The notes beneath the pieces were generated by a model. The model searched no databases. It had not been told where the DNA came from and saw only the letters and a list, made by a program, of their open reading frames with translations. From Ochromonadaceae sp. CCMP2298 (taxonomy: Eukaryota > Sar > Synurophyceae > Ochromonadales > Ochromonadaceae), in contig MU633832.1 in the NCBI GenBank assembly GCA_026770595.1, positions 1 to 22,095 of the forward strand: a stretch of 22,095 bases of DNA, written 5' to 3'. The stretch's first letter is position 1, and each line of letters opens with the position of its first letter. The translations under genes were made by a program, and so were the position numbers. Of the stretch, positions 594 to 22,095 are shown one piece after another.

Positions 594-3500
594 ATGTTCG
601 AGCAAGGCCTGGCCTACTTGTTGAAGAAGTTCTTGGGCACCTTCGTGGAGGATGGGGACGCGATCAAGGAGAAGGTTCAGGTGGGGGTCTGGTCGGGTCT
701 CATTGTGCTGGAGAACCTGCGTCTCAAGAACTCTCTCCTGAGCCTCATCGACGTGCCCATCTCGCTGGCCTACGGCTTCATCGGCCGCCTCGAGGTGCGC
801 ATTCCATGGGGCAACCTGGGCGTGGACCCGGTGATGATTATCGTGGACAAGATCTATCTCCTGATCGAGCCCAAGTACGAGTGGAACCCGGGGGCGGCAG
901 ACAGACGCGAGCAGGCGATGAAGCAGGCCAAGCTAGCGGCCACAGAGCTCTTCGCCAACAAACGCCTGAGTGCTGCGCAGGGCGGCCAGAGCTTCGGGGA
1001 CTACGCGCGGAACTGGCTGATCACCTCGTTTATCAACAAGATCGTGGACAATGTGCAGATTACGGTGCGCGAGGTGCACGTGCGCTACGAGGACGAGCTC
1101 TCCTGCCCCTCCAACTTCTGCGTAGGCATCACTCTGGAGTCGCTGCACATCCAGTCCAGGGACGCCTCCTTCAGCTTTGAGGACAACTACTCACCCCGGA
1201 AGGACAGCGGGAAAGACCAGGGGCAGAGTACGCCGCCAAAGGGGGGTGGGGGCGGTGGAGGTGCGTTCAACGCAGACAAGCTCTCCGAAGCTTTGAACAA
1301 CGAATTACGCACGCATGGGTTCGAGACCTTCCACAAGCTCGTGCAGATAAACCACCTCAGCGTCTACTGGAGCCCCCTGGTCACATCAGGCCTGAATGTG
1401 TGCTACTGCAGCTTTAAGGGCCGCTCACCGCAGGAGATGCGGGCCTTCATGAGCCGCACCATCCCCACTCGAGTGCACCAGCAGACAGACCGGCCCAGGC
1501 ACCACTACATCCTGCTGCCCGTGGACATCAACAACTACATCGACATGTCCTTCAACACATCTACTGGAGTGGCGAAGGTACCCTTTGCACCTACTTTGCA
1601 TCTTCTTTGCACCTGCTTTGCACTTGCTACCTACCATTCTCATCCCAGGGGCGGTCCCAGTTGTTGTGCTACAATTGCTCGGTATTTGTCCATGTCTCAC
1701 CTCTTCCACTGCTGTACTGCCCTTCCCTACCCCCCACATCACCACCATCACTCCTATCACCACACACACCTCCCAGGCGAACGTGAAACTCGTCATCTCC
1801 GAGCTAGCGCTCAACATGGAGGACCAGCAGATCCGCGAGATCATATCCATGGCCATTAATATGGGCAGTTTCGCGAAACTGCAGCGGTTTAGCGAGTTCC
1901 GGCCCACCACCACTATCTTCGATGAACCCTCTGCGTGGTGGCGGTATGCGATCAATGCGGTCATCCTGCAGCTGCGCATCGACAGCAAGAAGCAATTAAG
2001 TCTGCTGCAGCTCTCTAGGCGGTACATGGACAAATTGGTGTATATGGAGCTGTGGAAGAGCCGCCTGGTCAGCGCGCAGGGGGTTGTGAACCAGCTGAAC
2101 CAGGTAGACAACACAATAAAACCCATCTTAGACCGCGCCACCTCTGGGCTCTACCAGAGCATCTACGAGCGCGCTAAGCGCAAGCTGCAGGGGGAGGAGC
2201 GCAAGGGCCCCACGCACACGCACCGAGGCCGGGAGAGCAAGTTCACTGCGAGTTTGAACACCAGCGCCATCCCGGACACACGGCGCGAGGCCTCTGGGAC
2301 CTCAACCTCTCCTCCATCTGCGACCGCGCCTGCGGAGCTGATCCATCCCCTGGTGAAGGACACGATCGAGCTGCTGCAGGTGCTGGAGTACCACCTCAGC
2401 TTCGAGGACATCATTCTCTTCCGCGGGCTGGCGGAGAAGAAGCTCGCGCTGGCCAGCTCGCCCCAGAGCTGGCTTGGGGGCATGCTGAGCTGGGTGACGG
2501 GCGCGCCGTCCGTGTCTGAGGAGCAGAAGAGCAAGCTGTTCCAGGCACTCAAGTATGACCCCGATAGGGTGCTGAGGGGAGGGGCGAGGGCGGTGGACCA
2601 GAACGAGGTGGTGGCCATCGTATCTGTGCAGGTGCAGAGGGCCTACGTGACTATGGCGCTCACCTCTCCAGACGCCACGGCCACCTTCCAGTCATCGATT
2701 CCCTTCCTGCGCCTGGAGCTGGAGGACATGGGCTGCAGGGCGGTGGTTATGGGCGAGGGCGCGCACGTCAGGGTGAACCTCTCTCTCCAGGACCTAACTA
2801 TGTACGAGATGCTGCCCGCCTTTTCCTCACTCAGCATGAATATGGGGAATGCTTCCCGTCCCGGCAACCCCACCCGCAATAAGATTCTGTTCCGGCGGGA
2901 GCTGCGGGGCAGGCGAGGCAGTCCTGCTAGAGACGAGTGGGGGCAGGGCAGCGTGACAAGCAAGCTCAGCGTTGGCTCGGGTATGGGCAGGTCGGGAGCG
3001 ATGTACGCTAGTGCGGGGGGTGGGGGCTTGGGGGGCGGGTCTATGGGCATGGGGACGGGTGTGGGTGCGCCGCTGGTGTCGGCCAATATCGAGATGCTTC
3101 CCCCGAACAAGGAGACGGACATGATTGTCAGCCTGAACATAGAGGAATTGGAGGTGTGGGTCTCTCCCAGCGCGAAGTGGGTAGACTCCATGGCGACCTT
3201 CCTGGCCTGGCCTGCAGAGCAGCAGTTCTGGTCGGAGATGGAGATGGGCGCCATGAACGAGCTGGCCGACTTCAAGGCCCGCGTAGATGCGAAGTTGGAG
3301 TACATGATGCAGAACCACTCGAATATCATCATAGAGGGGCGAATCCTTGCACCCGTTGTGGTGGTGGTGGATCAGAGCGCGGCGGATGTGCTGGTGATAG
3401 ACCTAGGCACGATCGTGCTGAAGACGGAGAAGCTGGCCAAGGCGCAGAGGCAGAAGATTCTGGACCAGCGCAGCCACACGGGCTTCACCTCTGACGCAAC

Positions 3501-6500
3501 CGCCACCACGCCTGTGCTCGTACACCCCCACAACCAGCCCATATTTACCCCAGGAACTGGCGCGAGGGAGGCGAGGGATGCGAGGGCGGGGGAGAGGGAG
3601 GGGGAGGACACTCGTCGCGGTGGCGAGGTGGTGGTGAATCTGTTCTCGGATAAAAAGCTCAGCCCTGTGCGCGAGTACTCCCGACGCTCTTTGAGAAGCG
3701 CGCCTCCGGATTGGGAGGTGCTGGAGGAGGTGCGCGAGGGCACCCCGACGGCGGATATGGATATGGACATGGAGATGGAGATGGGGCTGGGCCTGGACCT
3801 GGGACGGGACTCTGAGGAGCACAGGGGGGGCTTTGCAGATGTGGACGACGACCCCAGGGACGACGGAGATGGGGGTAGATACAGAGACAGAGACAGAGAG
3901 GAAGACAGAGACTGGTCCAGCCCCATCGCCAGCAATCCTCCGCCCTCCGTGGGCGCCAGCACTATCAACACGGGGGGGTTGGAGTTCGATCAAGACGAGG
4001 AGGCTCTGTTCGACATATTCCAGTGCCAGATCAGCCAGATAGAGGTGTACCTCGTCAGCCTGCAGGTGTTCAGAGATCCCGAGGCGAGCGACCTGAGTGT
4101 GGGTTTGAGCAAGGCTGTTTTGGTGGACAAGTTCGAGATCGGGATAGAGATTCTGGTCTCCGTACTGCCCTGGGATACCACCATCCCCCCCACTAAGTTG
4201 ATCCTGCACATACCCGAGATCAACCTGTCCCTCTCGCTGCCCAAGCTGGTGCGCCTGAAGCAGTTCACCACAGAGCTCATATCGGACGATCCCACGCTGG
4301 CCGCCAATGTGCAGCGCATGCAGCAGCTGAACGCTCTACTGCGCCGGAAAAGCGACGCCGTTCTTCCGCGCTCCAAGGCCGCCAGCTCCCGCCTCTCTTT
4401 GATGTCCAGCACGGGCGGCTCGGTGACCGCTCTGCGCAGCAAGAGCCGCCGCGCACTATCGGTCGACGAAACCCGCAGCGATGCCGACTCGTCATTCTTA
4501 GACGCGCACCGGGGAGAGCGGGCACGCGGTGGTCCGTCGTCAAGCTCTCTGCTGGGTACGGGCAAGCCTCGGCGCAGGAGTAGGCGGTCGGGTCGGACTG
4601 TGGACGACTCCCAGAGCGACTCCCGCAGCTTAGACCAGTCCCAGGTGACCCAGCGCATGCGCAGCCTGGTGGACAACAGCTACGTGGTGGGCTCTGAGGA
4701 GGAGGAGGACTTCTTGGATGCGGAGGACGGGGGGGACGACGACAGCTTCTTCTCTGCCGACGAGCAGGTAGACTCCGCCGAGCACATGCGCCAGAAGCAG
4801 CACCTACAGTACGTACTGAGCCAGCGAGAGGCTATGCGCACGAAGCTTATGAGTGACGTGCGCACGTCGGAGGCCGACCCCAGCAAGGCGCCCTTGCACG
4901 CAACACTGCGACAGGAGCTGCTATTGTGTGAGCAGGAGCTGCAGCAATTGCGCGTAGCTTACGTGGAGTTGCTGATGAGCACAGAGGACCTCGACATGTA
5001 CACCACTGAAGAGTACGATGAGGGCCTGGTTCTGCCCATCGACAGCATGGGTGCCCAGGTGCAGGGGCATAAGCGGGACCTGGCGCACGCCTCGGTGTTC
5101 AAGCTCCCCCCCGCGGACAAGAAGCAGAAAGTCTCGAGCGTGAACAGAGAGCTGGTCTACGTCAAGGTCACACTCAGCGTGGTGAATGTGAACATGCAGT
5201 GCTCAGCGGACTCAGCGCTGGTGCGAGGCATTGCGGGTATCGAAAAGCCCAGGGCCCGGCGGCGGCAAGACAAGGAAAGAGACAGAGAAGAAGAGCTCCC
5301 GCTGGTCGTGTTTCGACTACAGTTGTCCGGAATGAGCATGCGTCTGCGGCATAAATCCCACGACTCCAGGATGGGGTTTTCCCTCCAAGAGCTGCAGGTG
5401 TTCGACTTTTTAACCCACAGCGACCCGGCCAAGGCGAGGGAGGCGCGGGAGAGGGGCCGCGAGTGCATATTCCTGCTGTCCTCTGAGCCCTCTAACTTCG
5501 GCATGCACATGAATCGGTATGGAGCTACCGACCTGCTGAAGGTGAAGTACGAGGTGGTGTACGGGTCCGAGGTGAGGGACGAGGCGGGCGAGGCGATCGA
5601 GGACCTAGGGCAAGCCACGCACAGCGCCAAGGTGTCCATGGGCATGGTGGGGGTGAACTTGGAGCAGCACAGGATTGCGCTGCTGCTGCTCACCGTGCAC
5701 GAGACACTGGAATGCGCGGGCCTGGCACCCTCCTCGTCCCCCCCCGCGGCCGAGCCCCATCTGTCGCTGGACCTACCGGCCGCCGTGCAAGCCGCTGCCG
5801 CAGGACCCGCTTCTGCTGCTGCGAGTCGCAGCTCCGCTCCCGCCCCCGCACCTGCGCCCACGCTGCCCACCCCCGCCTCGGACGCAGGGGCCGAAGGGGG
5901 TGCAGATCTGGCCCAGGGTCTCAGTGGCGACAACGCCACCAGTGGCTCTCCCGTCCCAGTGCCTGCCATGCAAGCACAGGGGCAGGGACAGGTGGCATGG
6001 GCAGCCTGGCCCAACCTCGTGCTGTGGGCCAAGGTGGAGGCCGTGTGCGTTACGCTTCTGAAAGACTCGCAGCCCCTGGTCACGGCGAGTCTGTGGGCGC
6101 TCTCGGGCACGGTGCAGTCCCACGGGAACGCGGCTAACGTCTCTCTGCGCTTGGCGGACCTTGCGGTACACTACCTGCGCCCCGTCAGTCTGGGGTCGGG
6201 GGATGCGGGTATAGGCATGGGCGCGGGCCTAGGTGTGGAGGAGGAGAGCGAGCGGGCCTCCGAGCGCGTGCTGCTGTTCGGTCGGGACACCGCCTCGATG
6301 TTGCCCTTCGCCTCTGCCGCACTGCAGTTCGAGCGTGCGTCCGACAGCTGTCCTATAGCCCAGGCTATGCTGACTGCCAAGACCGTGCCCCTGCAATTGC
6401 ACCTGCACCTGGACTGCCTGATGGACTGCGCGCAGGCGGCGGTGCACGGGCCGGTGGTGAAGGTGCTGGACAAGATGGGGGAGGGGCTCGCCCCCACAGC

Positions 6501-9500
6501 CACCGCCGCTCCGATTAGCCCTGTGCCCGCAGGTGTAGGTGCAGGTGCGGCCGAAGGTGCTCCCGCGTCTGCCCCTGTCTCCGCCCTGTCCGCCGCAGTG
6601 AACCCGCTGGTCGACTTGTGCAATGGCCGCCTGGAGCTGCTGCTGGGCAGCATCACTATCTGCTGCGCCGATCCGCTCAGCTCCAGCACCGCATCGGGGG
6701 CCGCAAACGGGGGCGCGAGCGGTGGCGGGTTGGGCAAGAGCAAGCGACAGGGCACTCTCCGCAACGAGGTGGCGCTGGTGGTGCACGCAGTGGAGGCCAA
6801 CGTCCTCTGGGGAGATGTGTGCGAGTTCGGGGCAGTGCAGGCTACCGTGGCGGCGCAGGGTGTCAGGTTAATTGTCGCCGAGTGTGTGGTGGTGGACCCC
6901 TTCGACGCCTTTTGCAAGGTGGGCGTGCACCCCGCGGGCTACTTCTACATCGCGAAGCACTCAGACACTGTCGGCAATCTGGCGTTCAACAGCCACTTTG
7001 CGCCCCCCGCGCTGCCCGATATCCGCCCCAATGAGGTGCAGGTGGCTCTGAGCGTGTCGCCGCTGCACCTGAGGGTACACGAGGAGACCCTGGGGGGAGC
7101 AGCGGCCTTCGCAGAGTACGTACTACCCGCCCTGCAGCGCATCAGTCAGTTGCTAGGGACACAGCCGCCCGTCCCCGACCCCACCAGGGTGTTGCTGCTG
7201 TCTGTGCCCCCGCTGCACCTCCCCGCCACCTCCGCCTCAGGTGTGGGTGAGCAGAGGCAGGAGGGGGTGGCGGGTCTGGGTCTGGACTTCACTCTCACTA
7301 TGGCTGCTGTGCTGCACGAGGCAGTGCTCTCCCTGGAGGTGGGCAGGAGCGCCCCCTCGGCTTCCAACTCCGCCTCCGCCCTACACCTGCAGGGACACGG
7401 AAACGGGTATTTGCATGGGTACGGACATGGGTTGGGACATCCGCATGGGTCCCAGGGGTCCTCCTTCCGCAGTGGGGTCGGTGGGGGGGTCCCACTGCCC
7501 AGCGCCGAGGAGGCCCGTCTTATGGGTTTGGCCTTCTCACCTGTGTTCCGGCTGGTGCTAAGGGGAGCTGCTGCGCAGGTGGGGATGGCTGCGAGCGGGG
7601 TAGGGCGGGAGGCCCAGTCCAACGTGCACGCTGAGAAGGGGGCAGAGAACGGGGCGGGGGCAACGGGCGTGGGCACTGCGGAGGCCTGGGTGCGCGTCTC
7701 CCTCCAAGTGGACGCAGTGCATCTGGAGCACGTGCAAGGCGGCACCTACAAGAGACTGCTCTCCACGGGCCTCTACGCTGACCACTGTCCAGACAGAGAC
7801 AAAGACGGAGATAGAGACCCCTCTGGGGAGCACACCTCTACCTCTGCCACCGCCGCCGCCTCTACCTCCACATCTGCCACGGGCTCCTCCGTCCTGCTCA
7901 GCGAAGAGTTCGCAGCCGCGCTGGGGCAGGCGCTGGACGGAGGAGCCCCCTCTGGCTCCGCCTCTGGCTGTGCCTCTGGCCATACGGTGCGGCGCTTCCT
8001 CTGCCTGGAGGCGTCTCTGACCCACGACCTGTGCGCAGAGCTGGGTGTAACTGCAGACAACCTGCATGGGACGGTGCTGGCAGACGCCGCCCTAGCCCTG
8101 GCCAAGCTGGGATCTGTATACGCCCAAGCACTGCGCACGCCCCAGGGTGCGGGTATGGGTGTGGGCATGGGCATGGGTGCGGGTGTAGTACGTACCCAGG
8201 CTCCCCCATTGGGCCTGGTGCGCCGAACCCCCAGCGGTCTGCGGCGCGTGACCTCGGGTAGCGGACTTGCCTTGGGGGTTGAGTTGCAAGCACACACCTC
8301 CCCCAGGAGCCTCGCAGGGGGTGCAGTAGGCGGTGCGGGTATGGGAGGTATGGGGGAAACTAACGGGGGTTCTGGTGTAGGGCTGGGGTCACCGTATCCC
8401 TCAAACGGGGTCGGTTTGTCGGGCTACGGCCACGGCTTCGGCACCTTCGCCCACCCCTCCTCCGTGCCCATGGCCCCCACTGCCCCCGCCTCCACCTCAA
8501 GCGCCCCCTTAGCCGCACCGCCCCTGCCGGCCACTTTGCTCACCACGGCCTCCCTGGGGCTGGGGGGTCTGAAGAGCCTGCGGGTGCGAGCCACGCTGAC
8601 CAGATTGTTCGTCTACCTGCCTGCGGGGGTTAGGGGGGGGGGGCTGTGTGCGGCGGGAGACGTGACGTTGGATGCGCAGGCGAGCGATGTGGGGGAGGGC
8701 TGGAGCCGCCTGCTGCCTGCGCGCGCGTTGGTCCACGCACAGGAGCTGGGTGCAGGTGGGGGTGCGGGGGTGCGCAGTGGGTCTGTCGCCTCAGTGGGTT
8801 CGGAGGATCCCGGCCCTGCACACCCGCAGACGCAGGGGCAGGAACAGGGGCAGACGTCCCAGCAGGTGCTTCTGCGCGTGCAGTGCGCCGCCACATCTGC
8901 GCAGCTCTTCCTCTGCCCCGCGCTGCCCCTAGATGTGAGCAGCCCCGTGCCCCCGCTGGTGAGGAGGGATGTGCCAGTGAAGTTAGCGTCGTTCGGCTGC
9001 CTTAGCCCGCTGAGAGACGCCAAGCCCTCATCGAACTCCTTGCATTCACACTCGGGGCACTCTCTGCAGAGTCTGCACTCGCACTCGTCCGGCAGCACTG
9101 GCGTGGGTGCTGGCGCAGGCGCGGGCACTGGCGCGGGTGCGGGTGCTGGTACGGGTGCGGGCGGGCAGCACAAGGCTTTGGTCTTCCCATTCGACGCACA
9201 GCTCTGCTACACGCTGGGCCTGACCACCACCCTGGACGATGCTCCGCACCATGGGTACGGCACCCCCACTTCCACCTCCACCTCCACCTCCACTGTGGGC
9301 CTTGCGCCTGTACGCTTCCATCTCTGGCAGCGGCTAGGTGTGGAGCTGGACACCGTCGAGGCGCAGTGCCTTCTGGACTACCGCCCCTTCATAAGCGTTT
9401 ACGAGCACTGCCTCCTGCTGCAGGGGGCGGTTGAGGCGGCAGAGGGGCTGGCCGCGCAGGGTGTGCGGGAGGCCGAGGCGGAGGCGGCTGCTGCCTACTT

Positions 9501-12500
9501 ACAGCCACAGCCGCACTCGCAATCGCGTGCACACACTTCCGGACTCGGAGCGGGGGCCGGAGCGGGGGGGCGAGATCACAGAGCGGAGATGGCCGCAGCG
9601 GCGGCAGCAGCAGTAGCCTCCATAGCATCTGCGTCCACCGCCTCCAAGGCCCCTGCTGGGAGTGTGAGGGACAGTGCCGGGCATGGGAATGGGCACGCAC
9701 ACATCGGTAGCCCCCAGCCCACCTCCCACGCATCGACATCCGCTTCTAATTCTGCTTCGGCGTACGTGTGTCTCGGCGCGGGACAGGCGCTGCTGCAGCC
9801 CTGCGCGTTGATCGACCTGCTGCCGCTACTGCCCGCCCTGGCGCCTATGCAGACCGAATTGCGCCTGCGCTCTCTGGTGCTCTACGTGATCAACGACGTG
9901 TGCAGGCAGCCCGTGTCTATCGCCCGCCTGTGTGCCACAGACGTGCTGCTGAGGGCCGATGTGGGCGCCCCGCCCCGCCCATTCCTCGTGCTGCTGCTGG
10001 CTGACGCTCCGGCTGAGCGGGCGCGGGGCGGCAGTGGGAGTGGGAGTGGTGGCGGCAGTCGCAGTGGTAGTGGCGGCGTCGACATTATTCCAGGCACCCC
10101 CGACCGCGCGGTGGGGCAGGGGCAGGGTCTCCTGCAGCTGCTGTCCCCCTCCTCTATCAGCTCCGTGCACAGCGCACTTCTGCACAACTTCGCAGGCAAG
10201 GGGGGAGGGGCAGGGCCGAGGAATGAGGGCGGGGCTAGCGCGATTGCTGGGAGCACGACTGCGGATGCAGGCTCCGGCTCTGTCCCCCCGTCCGCCGCGG
10301 ACAGAGAGGAGACTGCGGTGGTGACTGCGGAGGCCCAGGCAACTGTGTCTGTTGAGTATTACAACCAGCGCCTGCTCGCACGAGAGCCCCTCGTGGAGCC
10401 GTTCCTGCTAACAGGCAGGGCCAGCCTGCTGCAGCAGAGGAACGCGCTCGATGCGCCGGTGATGCTGCTGCTTAACGCACACGGTCACACACACAGCGCA
10501 CATACGACCCGCACACACGGTGTCCCAGTGCAGGCGCCATTGGGAGCGAGAGACGACCATCTGTTCGCTGCCTTCCTGACCCACCTCCTGGCCAAGCAGC
10601 CCTCGGAGCACCTGCCCCAAGCACAGGCGACACAGGCTCAGACGATGGTGCCCGCGCCAGTGCTGGTGTGTGTAGACGTGCCCGGTGCTGTGACTGTGAA
10701 CCTCACCATGTCCCTGCTGGAGATGCTGCTCGTCACAGGACAGACCTTGGCGGCGCTAGAGGCAGACGTGGGCCCTGCCTCTGGCTCCACCTCTACCGCC
10801 GCCTTCGCCTCTGCGTCTGCCTACCCAGCCGAGCGCGCGGACCTCTCCACCCTAGGCATCCGCAATGACTCGGGACTGCAGCTACGCTACTGGACCAAGG
10901 AGGGCGCCGGAGGGGGGGGCGGGGGTGGGCTGGGTGTGGGTGCGGTGGAGGTACCACCGAATACGGAGGCGCCTCTGCAGGTGGAGTACAGCTACGACAT
11001 GCGAGGGCAGGGGCAAGGCATGGAGAAGGGGGGTCTCGGGTCAGGCAGTGGGGGTAGTGCGTCTGAGGGGCGGTACGGCACTGCGCGCTGCATCAACCTA
11101 GCCCTGCACGACGCCCAGCACGACTCCTGGCCCGTGCTGCGCAGCATCCCGCTGGAGGGCGTGGGCACTAGACTGTTCGCAGTGCACTTCGACCAGGGAC
11201 AGGGGACGGGACAGGGGCGTGACGAGCGACACCCCCTCCCCGCCGGAGCGCGGTCCGACGCTTCTTCGCAGGTGCCCTCACTGGCCTTGGAGCTGGTGAG
11301 CAGGGGGGGCTCCAAGACGCTCATCGTGAGATCCACTATGCGACTCTTCAACGCCACCAAGATATGCTTCAAGGTGGCTCTGCTGAGCGACTGGGAGGGG
11401 GTAGGTGGGGGCGCGGGTGCGGGGGACGTGCTGTGGGAGGCGCTGATACCCCCCAACCAGGGCCTGCCCGTGCCCGCCAACCTGTGCAACATACCTGGCA
11501 GCTTCGTGGTCACCCCCGTGCTGGCCGCGCTCTCCTCCTCGTGGGAGGGTCCCTTCTGGCCAGTGAAGGAGACTGCCGCCCTGGCCTACGCCTGTGCAGC
11601 CCTGCCAGCCCCAGAGGTGCCGGGCATCACAGCTGCTGCGTGGGGCACCACTGCTGGTAAGAGAGCCACAAGCACCTCCGCTTCTGGGGCCGCTCAGGCG
11701 CAGACGCCGCCTGCTGAAGAGGAGCTGCAGGGACTGCCTGACAACGAGGTGCGTTGGCGCAGGAAGCTCCGGCAGCAGCGCGGCGCGGTGAACACTCTCT
11801 GCTACGCACAGTGGCTGCAGATGCACGTGCCCGCTGGGGCCGCAGGGGCTGGGGCTGGGGCGGAGACTGCCGAGCCTGCGAGTGCTGTAGGTGCGGGGCC
11901 TGTGGGGACAGGGACTGCTGACCTGATATCGCAGCTGGGCGCGGCTGCGGGCGCTGTGCACTGCGTGGTGGGTGTGAGCTCCAAGGGCCTTCCGCGCTCC
12001 TCCGGGCTGGCCACGCGCTCGCCCGAGTCCTGCATGCTCCGCACGCTCACGCTCTCCGCGCCCGTCACCGTGCTCAATCTGACCGCCGGGGAGATCAGAG
12101 TGGCCATAACGCCTGACCTGGCGCGCCACGGTCAGTCCAACGACCTCTCATCGCTCCTGCAGCTGGACCGGTCGGTCGACGCGCTCGTGCCACAGGCGCT
12201 GCTAGGGCCGGGCGAGTCGTGGGACTACTTCTCCGCCCACCCCTACGCCGACTTCTCTCTCAGCCTCAAACTCTGCAGCGCCTCCGGTGTGGGTGGTGTG
12301 GGTATGGGCATGGGTGGTATGGGTGTGGGTGCGGGAGTGGGTGTGGGGGGCGACCCTTGTGACAGCTGGAGTGAGGCACTAGTGTTGCGCGGCTGCCGCT
12401 CCAAGGTCGCCGAGCCCACCACCTACTCCCTCGATGTGCCGTACCCCAACGGCGCCCGCCTCACGGTGCAGGTGGAGGTGCACGACAAGGGGGGCTCCAG

Positions 12501-15500
12501 AGTGGTGCACGTGTATGTGCCCTTTTGGGTGGTGAGCAGCTCATTCCTGCCCCTGCAGTACCAGCACGAGACGTGGTTCGCATCGGGCGCGGACAGGGCA
12601 GTTAACGGTACCGACGCGCTCGCAGCGGACCAAGCCTACGCGCCCCCGGGCAGCCACGGCGATGAGCTGCTGCTGCAGAAGCGCCGACAGCAGACGCACG
12701 CGCAGGCTCAGCGGCGCGGGGGCGGGTACAAGCGCGGGGATGCCGATACACCCCACACACCCCACGCGGTGCGCATGCGGGGGCTGGGGCGGGCCCGGGG
12801 CCTGGACGGGGTCGTGCTGGGGCCCGAGCTGCCCCTGCGCGGTCTAGTCGATGTGCTCACGCCTGCCCCCGGCCTTAATGGACTGCTGAGCCGCCGCGTG
12901 CTGCGCGAGCAAGGGCGCATGGGCATGGGCAATGACGCGAACACGGACGGCAGGGGCGTGGGCTTGGGGCGGACTCGTCGGCGCCTGGGTGAGGGACAGG
13001 GCATGGGGTCAGTGGGCTCCGGGGGCTCACTCGCCTCAGCAGGGTCCACAGCCCAGACACACCGCAGCCGCAGCAACAGCCCCAATCGTCTCAGCGCCCC
13101 CGACAGACCACCCCCGCAAGGTCTGGGCCTGCTCGAGGCCCTGAGCGGGGGCGCGGGCGTGGGTGTAGGTGGGTTGGTGGGTGCGAGTGTGCGGGAGAGC
13201 CGGTCCTGGCGCCGCTTCTCGCTCATGCAGTGCGGCTTCTCCTCCGCCGAGAAGCGCTCCGCCCGCCTGCGCCTGCGCACCGGCCCCTGCTCCACCTGGA
13301 GCTCCGCCTTCTCCCTGGATGCCTCGAGCGCCCCATCCGCTATCGAGGTGGCCTCGCGACCCCGCGATTCGGCTGGGGAAGACGCCGACGTGGCTAGGGT
13401 TATGCCGCACATGGTTGGCGGGGGTGGTGGGGCGGGAAGTCGCATATTCCCCATGGGTGTGATGGTCACGCAGGCAGAGGCGCCCTTCTCCCGCACCCGC
13501 GTGGTAGTGGTGGCCGATAGATTCGTGATGGTCAACACTGCAGGCAATGCGATCGAGGTGAGGCAGCTGGGCAGGGAGGCCGTGTTCACCCTACGTCCTG
13601 GGGAGTCCGCGCCGCTGTGGTGGCACCCAGGCCCGCAGCTGCTGCAGGTGCGGCTGGCCCGGTACGGCTGGAGCTGGTCGGGGCGCTTCCGCGTGTCCGA
13701 AGGCGAGGTGCCTATCCGCCTGCGCAACGACTTCGACAACACGGTCTCCTTCGTGCTCGTGCAGGTGGTCTCCAGGGGCCCTAGTGTGCAGGTGATCTTC
13801 CGCGGGGGGGAGCAGTTCTCCCCCTATAGGTTCGAGAACCATACCCTTGATACCTTCAAGATCCGGCAGATGGGGCAGACACCCTGTACGGTGCTGCTGC
13901 CCTACCACTGCTCGGCCTATGCATGGGACGAGCCTCTGCAGGGGCACTACTTTGCAGTGGAGCTGCTGCTAAACGCGCTGCAGAGCCAGGACGAGTGGGG
14001 GCAGGTGGGCACCTTCTCCTTCGACCGCCTCGGACTACTGCCCCTGCCCCAGGCCGGCTCCGGTCTGGGTCTGGGTCTGGGTCTGGGCCTGGGTCTGGGT
14101 GGAAAGGGTGCGGTGGGGGGCTCTATGCAGCACTTGGTGCTACGGGTGTCCGCGCAGGGGCCCACGCGCGTGCTGCAGATTCTGGACCGCCGCACGCTGC
14201 GCAGTATGGAGCGTCTCTCGCACCTGTCCTTTGACGAGCACGCTGACGCGGCTGCGGTTGTGGGTGCGGGTATGGCGGGCTCTGGCAAGGGTGCTGGTGC
14301 GGGCACCAGCGGGGCAGGTGGGGCGGGTGCGGAAGGGGGCAGAGCGCTCCCCACCCCTGGCTCTCCCGTAGGGCAGGTGGGCAGGGTGGACAAGAGAGCG
14401 GGGACTGTCGTGTTGACTGGGAGTGCGGGGGTCGGGGCGGGTGCGGGTGGCTGGTCGGCTGCTGCGCTGGGCACACTGCTCGGCGAGACCCCCTCTTGGG
14501 GTGCCCCGGTGTCTGACTCTGCTGGGACTGGGACTGCCGTGGAGGTGCTGGTGCGCGCAGCCAAGCAATTACAGCTATCTGTGCGCGTGGCATCTCTGGG
14601 CCTATCTGTGGTGGACCAGGTTCCCCAAGAGCTGCTCTTCGTGGCCCTGGGTGGGCTGTCCCTGGAGCACTCCTTCTACGCACAGGAGCAGGTCACGCAC
14701 CTCAGCCTGAAGCGTCTTCAGGTAGACAACCAGCTCTGGTCCACGCCGTACCCCAGCCTGCTCTACCCGCTCATCGCAGACCGCACCTTCGTCAGCCTCA
14801 CATTACACCGCTCATTCCAGTACGCCGGCATCGAGTTCATCCCCCTGCTGAGCGTATCAGTCGCACCCTTCGACCTCAACCTGGACGGAACCATCATCGT
14901 GCGCGCATTGGAGACCGCCGCTCATGTGCTGGAGCTGCTCGAGTCCGCAGACGCCTCCTCGCAGAGCGCAATGATGCTGAGGTCCCGCGCCTACGTGAGC
15001 ATGCCCGCGGGCTTACCATCCTCTGCCGTGAATGGCACTGCTGGGCACCCACGCGATCGCTCCAGAGGTGATCCGCAGAGACAGGGACAGGGACAGGGTG
15101 CGGGCAGGGCGGGAATTTTCACTGCCACTGTCACTGCCACCAACACTGGCACGGGCACTAGTGCGCGTATGGAAAGCCCCCACTCGCTGGCTAACGCTAA
15201 TGGCCCGCCCCCCACCCCCGGCCCCTCAGCCCCCTCAGGCCTCACGTGGGCCTCTCCGGGATCGCTAAGCCACCACGACGCAGTGGACTTCGTGGCGCAC
15301 TCTCCCTACGCGCTGGCCTCCGTTGCGGGCGAGAGACTGAGGCCCGCGCAGGTGGGGCGCATCCACCAGCTGATGCAGACGCTCTCCCTCTCCGCGCAGA
15401 AGAGGCGCCGCCCCCCGCTCAGGGGCAGGCCCATGCCCCCGCGCCAGGCGCAGACCCAGACGTCTCAGGAGGTGGAGGCGCAGGTGCAGCAGCAGACGAA

Positions 15501-17685
15501 GCCCTCTCGCGTGCTGCAGCGGGTCTCAGGCGCGCCCACGGGCTCTCCGCAGCCGCGCAGCCGCCGGGCGTCTCGAGAGTCTCTCGTGTCAGCAGGGGGG
15601 ACAGGCAATGGGGGATCTGCGTCGAATCTAGGGACTGGCAAGCGCGTCAAGCACTCCACCTCGGGCTCCACCCACGCCGTGGGCCCCTTCTCCCCGCAGG
15701 CCTACCGCGCACAGGCGATGGCACAGGAGGTGGGCCCGACGCTCTCCCTGGCGCACCTGTACCTGCGCAGAGTGGTAGCAGAGGTAGCTGCCCCGCAGGT
15801 GGCCCCCCGCCCCACGGCGAAGACATACCTGCGCCGCCTAGAGGTGTCGGAGATCCGCTGCAACGTGTCTTTCAACCCAGGTGTGGCTGAGGGCGCGGGA
15901 GGCTTGGCAGTTGTGGGGGGCGTCAGGCTGGGGGCGGGGTTCGGGTCTGGCGGGGACGCGTCTCTGCTGAGCGCTGCGCTGCGCACAGTGGCGCTGGCGA
16001 TAGGCTCGGCGTTTGCGAAGATCGAGAATTGCCCCATCCGCTTCCGCCCCTACCGCCTGGAGCACGCGTTCGGCAGCGCGTCCTCGATCGGCCTAAGGCT
16101 GGGCACGAACTACACGATCCAGGCATTGACCCAGTCGTACATCGTGCTCTTCAGCAGCGAGGTGCTGGGCAACCCGGTGCGCCTGCTGCAGGGCTTGTCG
16201 GAGGGGTTGTGGGACTTCGTCTACCTGCCCACGGTGGGTTTAATGACCCTCTCCCCGCAGGCCTTCCTGCTGGGCGCTATGCGCGGCACCTCCAGCCTCG
16301 TACGCTCGCTACTGGCTTCCGTCTGCACCTCCGCGGGCGCGCTGGCATCATCGCTGCAGGTGGGGTTGGTAGCGCTGGGGGCTGTGGATCGATACCCCGC
16401 CCCCGCGCATGCACATGGACAGGGGCTGCTGCTCGAGAATGGCTCGGACGGGAAGGATGCGCGCACTGGGGCAGGTGCGGGTGCGAGCGACGAAGGGTCA
16501 GCGGGGGAGCTGGAGGAGGAGGGGGGCGCGGGCTCGGGCGTGCGCTCGCGCCTGCTCAGCGCCCGCAGCGCGCAAGAGCAGCAGCAGAGACGACCCAGCT
16601 CTGTGCTGGCGGGGGTGCAGATGGGCCTAGCGGGGGCGCTGCTTGACCCGCTGTGGGGATTCAAGGGCGACGGTGTGCGTGGCCTTATCGTCGGTGCGGT
16701 CAAGGGGGGCGTGGGGCTGTTCGCCAGGCCGCTCTACGGTGCCCTGGGCAGCGCCTCCAAGCGCCTAGACTGCGTCTCCTTCCGACTGCAGCCGCGCATA
16801 TTTGCCCACCAGAAATTGCGCCTGCAGAGGGCCCGCCCGCCGCGCTTCTTCCGCTCGCCCGATCTGCCCCTAAACGTATACTGCTCCGACGAGAACGCGG
16901 GGCAAGAGCTGCTGAGCCGCCTGAACGGAGGCGTGTACAGACACGAGGGGTATGTGTGGCACGGCGCACTGCTGAATCGCTCTCTGCTGCTGCTAACAAA
17001 GGTGCGTGTGCTGGTTATCAGCGCGGGCTTCGAGTTCGGCGAGGTGCTGTGGTCCTGCCCACTCAGCGCGCTGCTCTCCCTGGACGTGGAGTACGACAAG
17101 GAGCCCGCCGCGGGTGTGGGTGCTGGTGCGGGTGTGGGCGCGGGTGCGAAGGTGCGTCTACGCCCTGTGGACCTCAGCATCACCCAGGACTCGCCCCCGC
17201 CCTCCCCACGCACCCCCGGGGGGGGCTGGGCCGACTTCATGGGAAAGCGGGACCTTCCGGCTGTGCCGCTGCCCGGCACCCCCTGCCTGCACCTGTACCA
17301 CGTGCCGGAGCGACGACTCAAGGCAGGCGCGTCCCCAGCCAGGTCCCCGGGGCTGCGGCTGGCGCACCACCTGCTGGATCTGAGCAGCCACGCGCAGCTG
17401 CTCTCCCTGCTGCGCTGCCTGCTGGCCCTCAGCCCACAGCTCGCCTCCGCGGACGTGCTGCGATACTTGCGGGACGCGGGGGTGGACGTGGAAGCGGAGA
17501 GTAGGCTGCAGAGCCGCACCAGCCGCACCGACACCGGCAACAATGGCAGCCGAGGCACCAGCCGTGCAGGCGCCTTCGCGGCGAACCCTGCCTTCCCCGC
17601 CGCAGGGGTGCCAGGCGCAGTGGGGGCGCTGGGCGGGCTGCGTGTGGGGGCCTCGGCCTCTCGCTCTCTGCTGGGTGAAAGGTAA
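594..17685 (+). CDS. VPS13: VPS13-family bridge-like lipid transfer protein, very long (two exons)
   Basis: VPS13 proteins are rod-shaped bridges that move phospholipids in bulk between organelles at contact sites. Coding runs 594-1577 joined to 1777-17685, giving 5630 residues. Residues 1-110 are a chorein N-terminus (start MFEQGLAYLLKKFLG; later GFIGRLEVRIPW). Residues 136-190 match the extended N-terminal domain (NKIVDNVQITVREVHVRYED). WWRYAIN is at 382-388. The adaptor-binding (VAB/SHR-BD) region spans about 3300-4390, with PFWVVSSSFLPLQYQ, WWHPGP (4276), PYRFEN (4344) and YAWDEP (4376). The C-terminal family domain has IENCPIRFRPYRLEHAFGS (5077) and LLGNPVRL (near 5127). A PH-like end follows (PPRFF near 5349, EVLWSCPLSALLSLD). 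The ATG at 594 has A at -3 and begins exactly at the chorein start. Known homologues are roughly 3100-4400 residues; the excess here is low-complexity sequence, mostly between 900 and 4800. Assignment to a VPS13 subtype is not possible by eye. Further in-frame introns without stops cannot be excluded. Confidence 0.93.
1578..1776 (+). other. Intron 1 of VPS13 (199 nt, phase 0)
   Basis: The donor is AAG|GTACCC and the acceptor is CTCCCAG|GCG after a C/T-rich stretch. Exon 1 is exactly 328 codons, so the join falls between codons (…GVAK|ANVKLVISELAL…). Splicing is required: the first exon's frame reaches a stop at 1857-1859 if read through, while the VPS13 homology continues in another frame from 1777. 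The 5' part of the intron holds four CTTTGCA motifs 11 bp apart. The 3' part is rich in CACC and CCA. Confidence 0.85.
1583..1622 (+). repeat. 11-bp tandem repeat in the VPS13 intron
   Basis: CTTTGCA occurs at 1583, 1594, 1605 and 1616, an exact 11-bp period with variable 4-nt linkers (CCTA, TCTT, CCTG). It lies within 50 nt of the donor site. Confidence 0.8.
3016..3066 (+). repeat. In-frame Gly-rich low-complexity tract 1 (VPS13)
   Basis: G-rich DNA coding for an almost pure Gly stretch followed by Met-Gly and Val-Gly dipeptides. It lies between segments with normal composition and has no counterpart in typical VPS13 proteins. Confidence 0.8.
3754..3804 (+). repeat. GA(T/G)ATG hexamer tract coding acidic Asp/Glu-Met dipeptides (VPS13)
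   Basis: Codons alternate GAT/GAC/GAG with ATG, then shift to Gly-Leu and Asp-Leu pairs. A second charged tract made of AGACAG-like hexamers follows at about 3877-3909 and encodes RYRDRDREEDRD. Both look like slipped hexanucleotide repeats in frame. Confidence 0.75.
8146..8187 (+). repeat. In-frame GGGTNN/GGCATG hexamer tract (VPS13)
   Basis: Fourteen codons in which every other codon is Gly, alternating with Ala, Met or Val. G-runs of three recur every six bases on the coding strand. Confidence 0.8.
9100..9165 (+). repeat. In-frame Gly-Ala hexamer tract (VPS13)
   Basis: Twenty-two codons, mostly Gly-Ala with a few Gly-Thr and Gly-Val pairs, built from GGTGCG, GGCGCA and GGCACT hexamers. 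It directly follows a Ser/His/Leu-rich segment at about 9036-9090. Confidence 0.8.
9268..9294 (+). repeat. In-frame TCCACC repeat coding Thr-Ser (VPS13)
   Basis: Nine codons alternating Thr and Ser from a TCCACC hexamer, about 100 nt downstream of the Gly-Ala tract. A related Thr/Ser/Ala-rich tract lies near 7833-7887. Confidence 0.8.
12286..12351 (+). repeat. In-frame Gly-Val/Gly-Met hexamer tract (VPS13)
   Basis: Twenty-two codons of Gly alternating with Val, Met or Ala, inserted inside the adaptor-binding region just before a conserved-looking segment (about 12364 onward). G-runs recur every six bases. Confidence 0.8.
14062..14103 (+). repeat. In-frame GGTCTG repeat coding Gly-Leu (VPS13)
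   Basis: Six near-identical GGTCTG hexamers, with one GGC variant. This is the most regular microsatellite inside the coding region and so probably the youngest. Confidence 0.85.
17113..17148 (+). repeat. In-frame Gly-Val/Gly-Ala hexamer tract (VPS13 C-terminal domain)
   Basis: Twelve codons of Gly with Val or Ala, built from GGTGTG/GGTGCG hexamers. It lies immediately after the PH-like segment ending in LSLDVEYDKEP. Confidence 0.8.
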
Positions 17686-18047: not shown

Positions 18048-19121
18048 CTACTCATCAGAGTCATCAGATTCATCAGCGTTATCATCGTTATCAGAGAAAG
18101 CAGAGTAATTCGACTCATATCCCTCATAGTCCTCGAACTGTCCGCTCCAAGGACAGGGCGGATCCTGCGCTGTAAGCCATTGCAGCACATGCAGGTGGCG
18201 ACCCTTTGCAGCTTCGATGCATGTTTCTTCGTCCCAAGGACAGGGAGGATCCTGGGCTCGCAGCCACTGCACCACGTCCAAGTGACCTTTCGCTGCAGCC
18301 CGTGTGCAAGTCAGCTCTTCCCAAGAGCAGGGAGGATCCTGGGCTCGCAGCCACTGCACCACGTCCAAGTGACCACCACTCGCAGCACTTGAGCAAATCC
18401 CCTCGGTCCAAGGGCAGGGAGGATCCTGGGCTCGCAGCCACTGCAACAGATCCAAGTGGCCACTGTACGCAGCAAGGGCACAAGTTAGTGTGCTCCAAGG
18501 ACACGGAGGATCCTGGGCTCGCAGCCACTGCATCACATGCAAGTGACCACTCTCCGCAGCCAGTGTACAAACATATGCGTACCAAGGGCACGGAGGATCC
18601 TGGGCTCGCAGCCACTGCAGCAGATCCAAGTGGCCATTTTTCGCAGCACTTGCACAAGTCCCCTCGGTCCAAGGGCAGGGAGGATCCTGCTCTCGCAGCC
18701 ACTGCAGCAAATCCAAGTGATTACCCTTCGCAGCACCTGCACAAGTCAACTCGTTCCAAGGACAGGGAGGGTCCTGGGATCGCATCCATCGCAGCATATC
18801 TAAGTGGCCCCTCATCCCAACTAATGCACTAGTACACTCGTCCCAAGGACAGGGGGTATCCTGGGCTCGCAGCCACTGCAGCACCTTTAGTTGTCCGTCT
18901 CGCGCTATCTCCTCGGTAACCAGATTCGTCCGAGGCATGTTGAGCTCCCTCCACGCCCAGGAAATCAGAGGAACGGACGACACAAAGTCCTTTATCTTCA
19001 GGTCCTCAACAGGCGTGGTTGCCAGTTCATCTCTGCAGAACCTCGATACGAGTCTGAGCTGCGGGTCACCTGTCGGGCCCAGGAACTCCCTCACATATCT
19101 CAGCACGAACTGATTCTGCAT
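18048..19121 (-). CDS. Ankyrin-type repeat protein, PPCPW class, with F-box-like N-terminus
   Basis: A 357-residue protein. Residues 1-32 (FVLRYVREFLGPTGD, then LRLVSRFCRDE) resemble an F-box, but weakly. From about residue 78 there are nine repeats of 29 residues with the pattern LLQWLRAQDPPCPW, two or three variable residues, TC, AA, and a turn ending GHLD. The helix-turn-helix pattern and GHLD turn are ankyrin-like, in the short form frequent in algal and giant-virus proteins. Residues 326-357 are an acidic tail rich in Asp, Glu and Ser. Two Cys per repeat are nearly invariant, except in repeat 1 and where repeat 9 ends. There is no signal peptide or membrane segment. The ATG at 19121 follows CGCCGCC, a good eukaryotic start context. 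The partner is unknown; a substrate-adaptor role would follow if the F-box were real. It converges on VPS13 and diverges from the E2 gene. Confidence 0.85.
   Translation of the reverse strand: MQNQFVLRYVREFLGPTGDPQLRLVSRFCRDELATTPVEDLKIKDFVSSVPLISWAWRELNMPRTNLVTEEIARDGQLKVLQWLRAQDTPCPWDECTSALVGMRGHLDMLRWMRSQDPPCPWNELTCAGAAKGNHLDLLQWLREQDPPCPWTEGTCASAAKNGHLDLLQWLRAQDPPCPWYAYVCTLAAESGHLHVMQWLRAQDPPCPWSTLTCALAAYSGHLDLLQWLRAQDPPCPWTEGICSSAASGGHLDVVQWLRAQDPPCSWEELTCTRAAAKGHLDVVQWLRAQDPPCPWDEETCIEAAKGRHLHVLQWLTAQDPPCPWSGQFEDYEGYESNYSAFSDNDDNADESDDSDE
18160..18881 (-). repeat. Nine tandem 87-bp repeats in the ankyrin-type gene
   Basis: The core around GGATCCTGGGCTCGCAGCCA (plus strand) recurs at 18160, 18247, 18334, 18421, 18508, 18595, 18682, 18769 and 18856, every step exactly 87 bp. 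No unit has gained or lost a base. The core coding QDPPCPW is best conserved; the part coding the second helix varies. Confidence 0.9.
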
Positions 19122-19175
19122 GGCGGCGCTCGGTGTGAAGAATCGCCCTTAGAACTGTTAACAGTAACCAGGTCT

Positions 19176-19229
19176 CTATCGGGCTAGTGCAAGCGCCACA
19201 ACGAGGTAGAAAAGGGTCTGCGCGATCAT
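19176..19229 (-). pseudogene. Truncated duplicate of the E2 signal-peptide ORF (possible uORF of the ankyrin-type gene)
   Basis: The left arm encodes MIAQTLFYLVVALALAR followed by TAG. The first 16 residues are identical to the E2 N-terminus; the copy stops before the signal cleavage site and the AFAPF sequence. It begins 108 nt upstream of the ankyrin ATG, thus in the same frame, but TAG (19178-19176) and two further in-frame TAA codons separate them. It would act as a 17-codon upstream ORF if the ankyrin transcript starts in the spacer. Translation is not demonstrated. Confidence 0.6.
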
Positions 19230-19286
19230 GGTCGAGGACCTTCCAGCACCGGACGGGTCTGCGCAAGGAGCAACGGGAGCGCTGGC
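19181..19286. repeat. Inverted repeat, left arm (copy of the E2 leader and signal-peptide start)
   Basis: The reverse complement of this 106-nt segment matches 19473-19579 at every position except one G missing from a G-run (GGG at 19255-19257 against CCCC at 19502-19505). On the minus strand it contains the E2 start codon (19229-19227) and the next 15 codons. Homology ends abruptly at both edges. Confidence 0.95.
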
Positions 19287-19472
19287 AAAGAGTCAAGAAA
19301 CGTGTGTCCCAGGGGACCACTCGAGTGGAATGGTCTTGAGGTCGAAAAGTTTTGGTGGCATGATGACGAAAAGAGGGTGGAGCCCAAGGGAGCTTGCACG
19401 CAATGCACAAGATAGCATTGTAGAGCAGAGCGCCCTTCGAGAGCATCTCCTTCGCAACGCAGAGCTGCTCAC

Positions 19473-19579
19473 GCCAGCGCTCCCGTTGCTCCTTGCGCAG
19501 ACCCCGTCCGGTGCTGGAAGGTCCTCGACCATGATCGCGCAGACCCTTTTCTACCTCGTTGTGGCGCTTGCACTAGCCC
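19473..19579. repeat. Inverted repeat, right arm (E2 leader plus first 49 coding bases)
   Basis: This 107-nt arm spans 58 nt of E2 leader and the first 49 nt of the E2 coding sequence, ending inside the signal-peptide hydrophobic core. Because it carries functional coding sequence, it is presumably the original and the left arm the copy. Confidence 0.95.
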
Positions 19580-21282
19580 AGGTGGCTGCATTTGCACCTT
19601 TCATGGGCGGTTTCCGCGTGCAGCGCCACATGAGTACGGAGGTGCGGGCAACAATCGATATCGCCATGCCTGCCCTGTCCAGCACGATGAAGGAGGGCAA
19701 GATCGTATCCTGGAACAAGAAAATCGGCGAGAAGGTAAACTCTGGCGATGTGCTGTTGGTGGTGGAGTCAGACAAGGCAGACATGGACGTGGAGTCATTC
19801 GAGGAGGGCTACCTGGCTGCCATATACACGCCCGAGGGTGGATCAGCTGATGTGGGCGCAGTGGTGGCTGTGATGGTGGAGCAGCAGAGCGAGATCGGCT
19901 CCGTGGGATCCGCCCCCGCCCCCGTGGCTACTCCCGCTGCCCCCGCCCCTGCTGCCACCGTCACCATCGCTGCCGCCCCTGCCGGTGCCTCCCCCGAGTT
20001 CGAGGCTATCACGATGCCAGCCCTTTCTAGCACGATGAAGGAGGGCAAGATCGTCTCCTGGAGCAAGAAGGTGGGCGACAAGGTCTCATCAGGCGACATG
20101 GTGCTGGTGGTAGAGTCTGACAAGGCAGACATGGACGTGGAGTCGTTCGAGGAGGGCTTCCTGGCTGCCATCACAGTAAAGGACGGTGAGGTGGCGGATG
20201 TGGGCGCACCAGTGGGATACCTCGCCCCCTCCGCTGAGGCCATCCCCGCCGTGCAGGCCTACGTGGCCTCCATGGGTGCCACACCCGCCGCCCCTGCTGC
20301 TGCTGCCCCTGCTGCTACTGCCCCTGCCGCTACTGCCCCTGCTGCTGCTCCTGCCGCCGCCGCCCCCGCCGTAGCGGGAGCGCACGTGCCTGCGATGGGC
20401 ACTGTCAACGCCTCCCCCATGGCGCGCAAGCTGGCCGCAGAGAACAACATAGCCCTCGCCTCCGTCACGGGCACGGGCAACTTCGGCCGAGTTGTGCCTG
20501 ACGATGTGCTCAAGGCTGCAGGGAAGTACGTCGCCCCTGTGTCCACCACACCTCCCGCCGTGGCCGCGGCCGCCTCCAAGGCCCCTGGCCCCGCGGCTGT
20601 GCAGGTGGTGTATGGAGTGCAGCCCATGAGCGGCATGCAGAAGGCGGTGGCGAAGAACATGGAGAAGACTCTGGACGTGCCGGTATTCCGCGTGTCGAGG
20701 GAGATCTACACTGACGACTTCGACGCCCTCTATGTGCAGTTGAAACCTAAGGGTGTTACCGTGTCTGCCATGCTGGCCAAGGCGGTAGCGGAGGTGCTTA
20801 AGAAGCACCCGGTTGTCAACGCTGCGTACGTAGATGGCGGGGTTAAGTACTCAAAGGATGTGAATGTGGCAATGGCTGTTGCGATCGATGGCGGGCTGAT
20901 GACGCCCACGATAGTGAAGGCCAACGAGATGGATCTGTTCCAGATAGGGCGGGTATGGAAGGAGCTCGTGGGCAAGGCGAAGGAGAAGAAGCTCACCCCT
21001 GCCGAATACAGCACCGGCACCTTCACCATCTCCAATCTAGGCATGTTCGGGGTGCAGCAGTTCGACGCCATCCTGCCCCCAGGCACAGGCTCCATCCTCG
21101 CGATCGCTGCGTCCACCCCAAAAGTGGTGCAGGACATGTCAGGCCAGCTTAAAACGGTCAAGTGTATGACCGTCACCATCACTTGCGACCACAGGCACAT
21201 CTACGGCGCAGACGCGGCAGAGTTCCTGAAGGACCTGGCGGACCTGATAGAGAACCACTCGCAGTCCCTAACCATGGGATAG
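19531..21282 (+). CDS. Plastid-type pyruvate dehydrogenase E2 (dihydrolipoamide acetyltransferase), two lipoyl domains
   Basis: E2 moves the acetyl group from E1 onto CoA in the plastid pyruvate dehydrogenase complex, feeding fatty-acid synthesis. The 583-residue product starts with a signal peptide (hydrophobic LFYLVVALALAQVAA) and then FAPF, the junction typical of red-lineage complex plastids. Lipoyl domain 1 covers about 41-117 and domain 2 about 157-232, each with ESDKADMDVESFEEG; the lipoylated lysines would be K82 and K198. Ala/Pro linkers follow each. The E1/E3-binding domain is 293-329 (ASPMARKLAAENNI). The catalytic domain covers about 362-583, ending in CDHRHIYGADAAEFL with the catalytic His at 554. 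The usual HxxxDG reads HRHIYG, with Tyr for Asp, as I recall for cyanobacterial and plastid E2 proteins. The frame is open back to an ATG at 19228, but the start at 19531 gives the signal peptide and has A at -3. No intron is needed. Confidence 0.93.
   Translation: MIAQTLFYLVVALALAQVAAFAPFMGGFRVQRHMSTEVRATIDIAMPALSSTMKEGKIVSWNKKIGEKVNSGDVLLVVESDKADMDVESFEEGYLAAIYTPEGGSADVGAVVAVMVEQQSEIGSVGSAPAPVATPAAPAPAATVTIAAAPAGASPEFEAITMPALSSTMKEGKIVSWSKKVGDKVSSGDMVLVVESDKADMDVESFEEGFLAAITVKDGEVADVGAPVGYLAPSAEAIPAVQAYVASMGATPAAPAAAAPAATAPAATAPAAAPAAAAPAVAGAHVPAMGTVNASPMARKLAAENNIALASVTGTGNFGRVVPDDVLKAAGKYVAPVSTTPPAVAAAASKAPGPAAVQVVYGVQPMSGMQKAVAKNMEKTLDVPVFRVSREIYTDDFDALYVQLKPKGVTVSAMLAKAVAEVLKKHPVVNAAYVDGGVKYSKDVNVAMAVAIDGGLMTPTIVKANEMDLFQIGRVWKELVGKAKEKKLTPAEYSTGTFTISNLGMFGVQQFDAILPPGTGSILAIAASTPKVVQDMSGQLKTVKCMTVTITCDHRHIYGADAAEFLKDLADLIENHSQSLTMG
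19666..19824 (+). repeat. Lipoyl-domain internal duplication, unit 1
   Basis: Fifty-three codons from MPALSSTMKEGKIVSW to GYLAAI. They match unit 2 (348 nt downstream) at 46 of 53 residues and closely at the DNA level, including a long identical run around the lipoyl lysine. Confidence 0.9.
20014..20172 (+). repeat. Lipoyl-domain internal duplication, unit 2
   Basis: Second copy, MPALSSTMKEGKIVSW to GFLAAI. All seven differences from unit 1 are mild (such as I/V, E/D, Y/F, N/S), which fits two functional domains under the same constraint. Confidence 0.9.
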
Positions 21283-21602: not shown

Positions 21603-22005
21603 CTACTCGAAACAGAAAACCGGATATTTCTCTTTAATACCCGGCAGGCTCTCCCGCAGCCCCTCCATGTCACTCAGCAGTGCCGGAGGCACCATCACGC
21701 CCCCGGCGGCGGTGCGGTTCGTGCGCGATTCGAACTCGGGCTCACCGGCGGTCCAGATTCTCCCCGGGCCCGTCGGGTCCTTCATTGAGCCACGCATGAA
21801 CCGCAGGAACTCCCCGGCGTTTTTGCGGAACACGTCCTCGTCACAGATGGCGGACACATCGATGGCGAGGAAGAAGTGGCCAAGTCTCATTGGCGAGGGC
21901 TTGCCGGTGACCGGGTCGACGCCCGAGATGGCGGACCCGTATTCGCCGCTCTGGAAGGCGATGCTGAGCAGCTCGACCACGGTGGCCCAGCCGAAGCCCT
22001 TGTAG
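21603..22005 (-). CDS. Malate/L-lactate dehydrogenase (Ldh_2) family oxidoreductase, C-terminal exon, 5' partial
   Basis: Members of this family (malate, L-lactate, ureidoglycolate and related dehydrogenases) oxidise 2-hydroxyacids with NAD(P). The last 133 residues are present, ending at TAG 21605-21603. Family signatures are YKGFGWATVVELLS, GHFFLAIDV, GRIWTAGEPEFESR and the conserved Gly-Ile/Val-x-x-Pro stretch near the end (GGVMVPPAL). Substrate cannot be deduced: the catalytic N-terminal part lies outside the window. The exon probably begins at 22005, after a CCACAG acceptor. The leading C completes a GGC if the previous exon ends in GG, restoring the family's GYKG. A GTG at 21980 is not a credible start, because homology continues upstream of it. 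There is no C-terminal SKL. The neighbouring E2 gene converges on it. Confidence 0.8.
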
Positions 22006-22014
22006 CTGTGGTAG

Positions 22015-22095
<81 letters not shown>
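22006..22095 (-). other. 3' end of an Ldh_2 intron (inferred), made of CCTCAC repeats
   Basis: Read on the minus strand this is a long CCTCAC repeat, then CTACCACAG and the exon. It supplies an unbroken C/T-rich tract before a good acceptor. If not spliced, the frame would read Leu-Thr repeats into TYHSYKGFG, which is unlike the family. The donor is outside the window. Confidence 0.6.
22015..22095 (+). repeat. GTGAGG hexanucleotide microsatellite, at least 13.5 units, runs off the window
   Basis: Perfect GTGAGG units without a single substitution over 81 nt up to the last base. The true length is unknown because the window ends inside the repeat. Confidence 0.97.

Follow-up and report, generated by a model that had tools for sequence, protein, structure and literature searches.

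Between two divergently oriented genes of a chrysophyte-like alga, on the one side an ankyrin-repeat gene and on the other side a gene for the dihydrolipoamide acyltransferase E2, lies a long and near-perfect inverted repeat, the left arm of which probably originated as a recent templated inverted insertion, i.e., by a template switch in the course of replication or repair. The window, i.e., the whole stretch of DNA that was analysed (22,095 nt), corresponds to contig C99 of an 11.2-Mb assembly of 724 contigs. As it stands, the feature would read from its sequence as one young mutation beside a housekeeping gene and is most likely a known kind of accident, unusually long, rather than a new control system. 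As such, it provides a fresh and long example of a known mutation class, where one step can add a perfect hairpin together with a foreign upstream open reading frame (ORF).

Arms, spacer and flanking genes

The elements under consideration are as follows:
18048–19121, minus strand: ankyrin-repeat gene, 357 codons plus stop, belonging to a large family in the same assembly
19122–19180, minus strand: 59-nt stretch from the left arm to the ankyrin ATG, the arm-side first 19 nt weakly resembling the region before the paralogue L028
19176–19229, minus strand: upstream ORF of 17 codons, 16 of which match the E2 signal-peptide start, followed by TAG; begins in the left arm
19181–19286, minus strand: left arm, 106 nt, repeating the E2 leader and start in inverted orientation and facing the ankyrin gene; presumably the derived copy
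19287–19472, no strand: spacer between the arms, 186 nt, 53% GC
19473–19579, plus strand: right arm, 107 nt, comprising 58 nt of E2 leader and 49 coding bases; presumably the original
19531–21282, plus strand: E2 gene, 583 codons plus stop, with the Pfam domains 2-oxoacid_dh, Biotin_lipoyl and E3_binding

The two arms are mutual reverse complements bar one indel, namely GGG at 19255–19257 against CCCC at 19501–19504 in a G/C run. Over the 107 columns compared, this indel is accompanied by no substitution (99.07% identity by blastn), and the longest exact match between the arms reaches 77 nt. The preliminary description of this DNA had reported a near-perfect inverted duplication between divergent genes with arms of 106 and 107 nt differing by one base, a right arm including the E2 leader, start codon and 49 coding bases, and a left arm pointing at the ankyrin gene, all of which is confirmed, with 58 nt of the right arm preceding the E2 start codon (19531) and the left arm lying 59 nt before the minus-strand ATG (19121). 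The 409 nt between the two start codons are composed of these 59 nt, the left arm (106 nt), the spacer (186 nt) and the leader part of the right arm (58 nt). Presumably, the spacer would hold whatever promoter E2 has and perhaps that of the ankyrin gene too.

The match breaks off abruptly at both ends, the sequence being unrelated at all four arm ends. Neither a direct repeat of 3–10 nt right at the outer arm ends nor microhomology just outside the arms is visible, and neither junction has a common adjoining base. Within the window, blastn (E up to 0.01) returned no other inverted pair of at least 25 nt, and the repeat listing adds four further weak inverted pairs of 27–34 nt, 74–79% identical and thousands of bases apart. 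Exact inverted pairs (arms of at least 13 nt, loops up to 400 nt, low-complexity arms omitted) were further counted in 41 sources of the same assembly, i.e., in 133,519 readable bases, where 14 were found, two of them belonging to the arms of the window, against a mean of 1.0 (range 0–2) in 10 first-order Markov resamples; since the longest resampled arm measured only 15 nt against 77 nt in the window, the arms are not the product of chance. Prior to counting, L001–L003, L027 and L041 (the window itself), L043 (overlapping L042), L061 (only 16 bases) as well as L053, L062 and L063 (duplicating L051, L054 and L055 fully or almost fully) had been dropped. Among the 20 ten-kilobase genome stretches sampled, 13 were wholly N and dropped, three were partly N and four fully readable, which makes the rates uncertain.

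Probable direction and mechanism of the insertion

Considering which arm came first, the right arm is much the likelier original and the left arm its copy, (i) because a random non-coding stretch would hardly supply an E2 start and signal peptide by being copied, and (ii) because E2 needs the right arm, which carries signal-peptide code, hydrophobic starts being present in the seven aligned relatives. The E2 product is probably targeted to the plastid, as suggested by a signal-peptide-like, hydrophobic start followed by AFAP; in algae with this type of plastid, such an arrangement is typical of proteins destined for the plastid. Out of 11 E2 relatives fetched, seven were aligned, and in 7/7 the first lipoyl domain is preceded by a short N-terminus that looks hydrophobic by eye, although this N-terminus is hardly conserved in sequence; in the other four (P0007, P0010, P0069 and P0084), which are perhaps truncated, the protein starts close to or even beyond the onset of that domain and has no such leader. 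The protein listed for the window itself (P0001) is likewise assigned a later start (499 residues). Among the best 120 of 7999 matches, the closest other E2 shares 63% identity over its length, the highest value noted being 78% over half (P0084); the best matches bearing an organism name point to chrysophytes, namely to an Ochromonas-type transcript (P0010), to Ochromonas danica (P0069) and to CCMP2298 (P0084), diatoms ranking lower, and no near sister locus was found through the E2 protein among these same 120. An E2 start at 19228, in the left arm, was also considered, the frame being open for 107 codons before 19531, and was rejected because such openness fits chance (426/5000 resamples of the stretch, 656/5000 with only the spacer resampled) and because the extension would bury the signal peptide.

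In the proposed course of events, replication or break repair between the ankyrin and E2 genes would see the nascent strand leave its template at E2 codon 17 for the opposite strand, copying would then run backwards through the E2 start codon and leader for about 107 bases, and the strand would finally return to its place. Expressed in the four-point notation, L to 1 would end at 19180, 2 to 3 would copy 19579 back to 19473, and 4 would resume at 19287, such that one two-jump template switch would account for the arms, the spacer and the flanks altogether. It is from the sequence that we infer the mechanism, the right-to-left direction and the recent age of the insertion. As a consequence, ankyrin transcripts initiated upstream of the left arm would acquire a 17-codon upstream ORF, and transcripts spanning both arms could fold into a hairpin of about 106 bp. 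The age would be recent because the 106 compared bases carry no substitution; the earlier suggestion of a very recent inverted duplication thereby gains support, with zero substitutions and one indel over 107 columns, the right arm being the likely original and the left one its copy. Subsequent correction of one arm against its partner could likewise have preserved the likeness.

The four-point model is that of Loytynoja and Goldman, as cited in PMC7954356, and as in such mutations a nearby sequence recurs in the window as its reverse complement (2 to 3). Template-switch mutations are local inverted copies between kept flanks, a single event giving a perfect inverted repeat (PMC7954356). In the confident set of great-ape template switches, half of the copies measure no more than 12 nt (the median) and the longest measures 128 nt (Walker et al., 2021, PMC7954356), so the copy of about 107 nt is far above the usual length yet inside the range; it differs further in the capture of a gene leader with its start codon and in its chrysophyte-like host. 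Template switching also creates RNA hairpins, and one event can make a perfect stem (PMC8794818); RNA genes are concerned there, whereas the leader of a protein gene is concerned here and the hairpin RNA is only potential. Judging by titles and the beginning of abstracts, none of the eight papers listed, out of 23, on inverted repeats in chrysophyte nuclear genomes bears on this feature.

A probable similar insertion and palindromes beside ankyrin paralogues

The ankyrin family amounts to 117 matching pieces in the assembly, and the N-terminus of the window's member is 65% identical to a protein of Ochromonadaceae sp. CCMP2298 (P0121). For comparison, 30 ankyrin 5' regions were considered, i.e., that of the window plus 13 plus 16 non-identical ones. 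Elsewhere in the family, the 5' regions of C25 and C693 (in two places) and those of C321 and C231 show no difference over about 500 bases, and C43 and C473 have equal ankyrin match scores.

The paralogue L029 (contig C83; L029:1782–1898) exhibits a near-perfect palindrome of 117 nt, with 58-nt arms around 1 nt, which ends exactly with its own ATG. Compared with L030 (contig C61), which is 97–98% identical on both sides and colinear in both flanks, L029 carries an insert of 63 nt, 58 nt of which repeat, in reverse-complement form, the neighbouring leader down to and including its ATG. The insertion can thus be seen beside an insert-free copy within one genome; no comparable inverted repeat was found in the next paralogue, L031. 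The palindrome looks unlike what a mobile element or a fold-back chimera would leave behind. The gene copy in L029 may be in decay, since its protein match is broken into pieces, one of them with a stop. Near-perfect arms of at least 50 nt beside the start are present in 2/30 ankyrin 5' regions, the unbiased count being 1/29 because the window was chosen for having such arms.

Respective to mechanism, a break-repair variant of the template switch, where the copy would be taken from the other side of a break before joining, would account just as well for the single central base of L029. Inverted fillers are also left by polymerase theta end-joining, usually shorter than 100 nt, whereas the copy in the window reaches 107 nt and is without visible microhomology. 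Such a filler is copied in inverted orientation from near the break (PMC9962433), in likeness to the left arm, and a copy running off a broken end would be compatible with the 1-nt centre seen in L029.

Shorter palindromes occur as well. A perfect one with 26-bp arms around 1 nt lies about 410 nt upstream of an ankyrin copy (L064:158–210, i.e., C198:6457–6509), and an exact one with 16-bp arms stands before the ankyrin copy of L048; L064 is outside the 133,519-base count and corrects the length of the pair counted for L046 from 17 to 26 nt. The four exact palindromes with a near-zero loop (L029, L046/L064, L048 and L024:99–133) all centre on 1 nt. An imperfect inverted repeat (82%) at L024:4807–5039 (contig C18), one of 29 inverted pairs returned by blastn in a 10-kb stretch, looks like a miniature inverted-repeat element.

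The region before the paralogue L028 was compared with the window in search of the state without the left arm, and the joined alignment did not convince. Joining the spacer with the 59-nt flank gives a score of 30.0 (shuffle mean 23.2, equalled in 34/500 shuffles), the spacer by itself does no better than chance (equalled in 265/500), and end-to-end alignment scores slightly higher with the arm (29.5) than without (27.5). The 19-nt resemblance beside the left arm is weak, 17/500 shuffles scoring as well.

Competing explanations and wider reach

A fold-back artefact of library or assembly had been raised from the outset, in which case a chimera would have been joined to the ankyrin contig. The feature is carried by a single contig of the 724, the protein cluster of the window (P0001) counts one member on one contig, and the arms differ only in the length of a homopolymer, a common type of sequencing error. 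A simple fold-back would, however, continue as the reverse complement of E2, whereas beyond 19181 the sequence enters a different open gene, 59 nt away; a chimera would need two independent joins; and in the same assembly L029 displays an event of this kind, although the sequence around it runs colinear with L030. Disfavoured on these grounds, an artefact appears unlikely.

Instead of a template-switch accident, the copied leader could be functional, where a divergent promoter in the spacer would drive both genes, the ankyrin mRNA would receive the 5' end of E2 and the upstream ORF would exert translational control. The genes are indeed divergent, the copied leader faces the ankyrin gene, and the ankyrin ATG follows 54 nt after the end of the upstream ORF, which encodes MIAQTLFYLVVALALAR* (19229–19176). 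The arms may possibly have a regulatory role. Against a common leader giving both genes matching 5' ends, as first envisaged, the left arm ends inside codon 17 and not at a gene boundary, i.e., the copy halts within the signal-peptide code and meets an immediate stop, and 0/29 further non-identical ankyrin 5' regions match the window upstream of the start codon over at least 60 nt. To judge from the reading frame, what the left arm supplies to the ankyrin gene is only the 17-codon upstream ORF and no common protein start, and a functional leader duplication is improbable.

Transcripts crossing both arms could form a hairpin of about 106 bp, as had been anticipated, and, when the 399 nt are folded as RNA, the near-perfect stem is predicted at −304.9 kcal/mol (z −27.3; 0/100 shuffles as good). 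New microRNAs arising from template switching are reportedly the subject of a paper, and the original inverted-duplication model of plant microRNA origin is said to be that of Allen et al. in 2004. Following this model of microRNA birth, double-stranded RNA from such a transcript would silence E2. In that model, part of a protein gene is likewise duplicated in inverted orientation and the hairpin could match that gene (PMC3237417), whereas here the arms are at the gene's own start instead of at a separate locus. In the assembly, Piwi, RNase III and PAZ domains had zero matches each, a weak result as the assembly is partial-looking and partly masked and matching was exon by exon; control searches for the three domains were positive in 1, 8 and 0 of 14 genomes, respectively, and actin was found in the assembly as a check on gene searches. 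Oomycetes are distant stramenopile relatives. RNA-silencing proteins have been reported from oomycetes (PMC10080066). A hairpin or small-RNA source maintained for silencing is, on balance, very improbable.

A foldback or MITE-type mobile element, the right end of which would have been taken over as E2 leader, is scarcely credible, since long terminal inverted repeats do flank a short spacer but the unmasked sequence of the assembly holds no further copies of arm or spacer (the 399-nt unit retrieving only the window itself) and the outer ends carry no target-site duplication of 3–10 nt, in contrast to the several genomic copies and target-site duplication of such elements, and one arm is signal-peptide code. 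No exact 30-base piece of the arm occurs in viral contigs.

Coming back to the templated inverted insertion, two unrelated genes, namely E2 and the ankyrin paralogue L029, have their leader and start codon copied backwards, and gene leaders might be repeated targets of long insertions of this type in this alga, an idea that we hold to be rather doubtful. Transcription starts, through R-loops or breaks, would perhaps provoke the template switch; quasi-palindrome mutations of yeast are reportedly initiated by RNA-DNA hybrids where the DNA is highly transcribed (PMC3820800). If true, leader targeting would equip genes with new upstream ORFs and hairpins, each time within one step, and, should leaders prove favoured sites, a link between transcription starts and template switching would emerge for algae that have received little study.

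As for the rest of the window, positions 1585–17685 stay open in one frame, without interruption, for 5366 codons; the putative product looks like a VPS13-type lipid transfer protein containing many low-complexity stretches rich in Gly/Ala. At the other extremity, the contig ends in a GGTGAG tandem repeat (22002–22095), just before which lies a piece of a minus-strand malate/L-lactate dehydrogenase (Ldh_2) gene.
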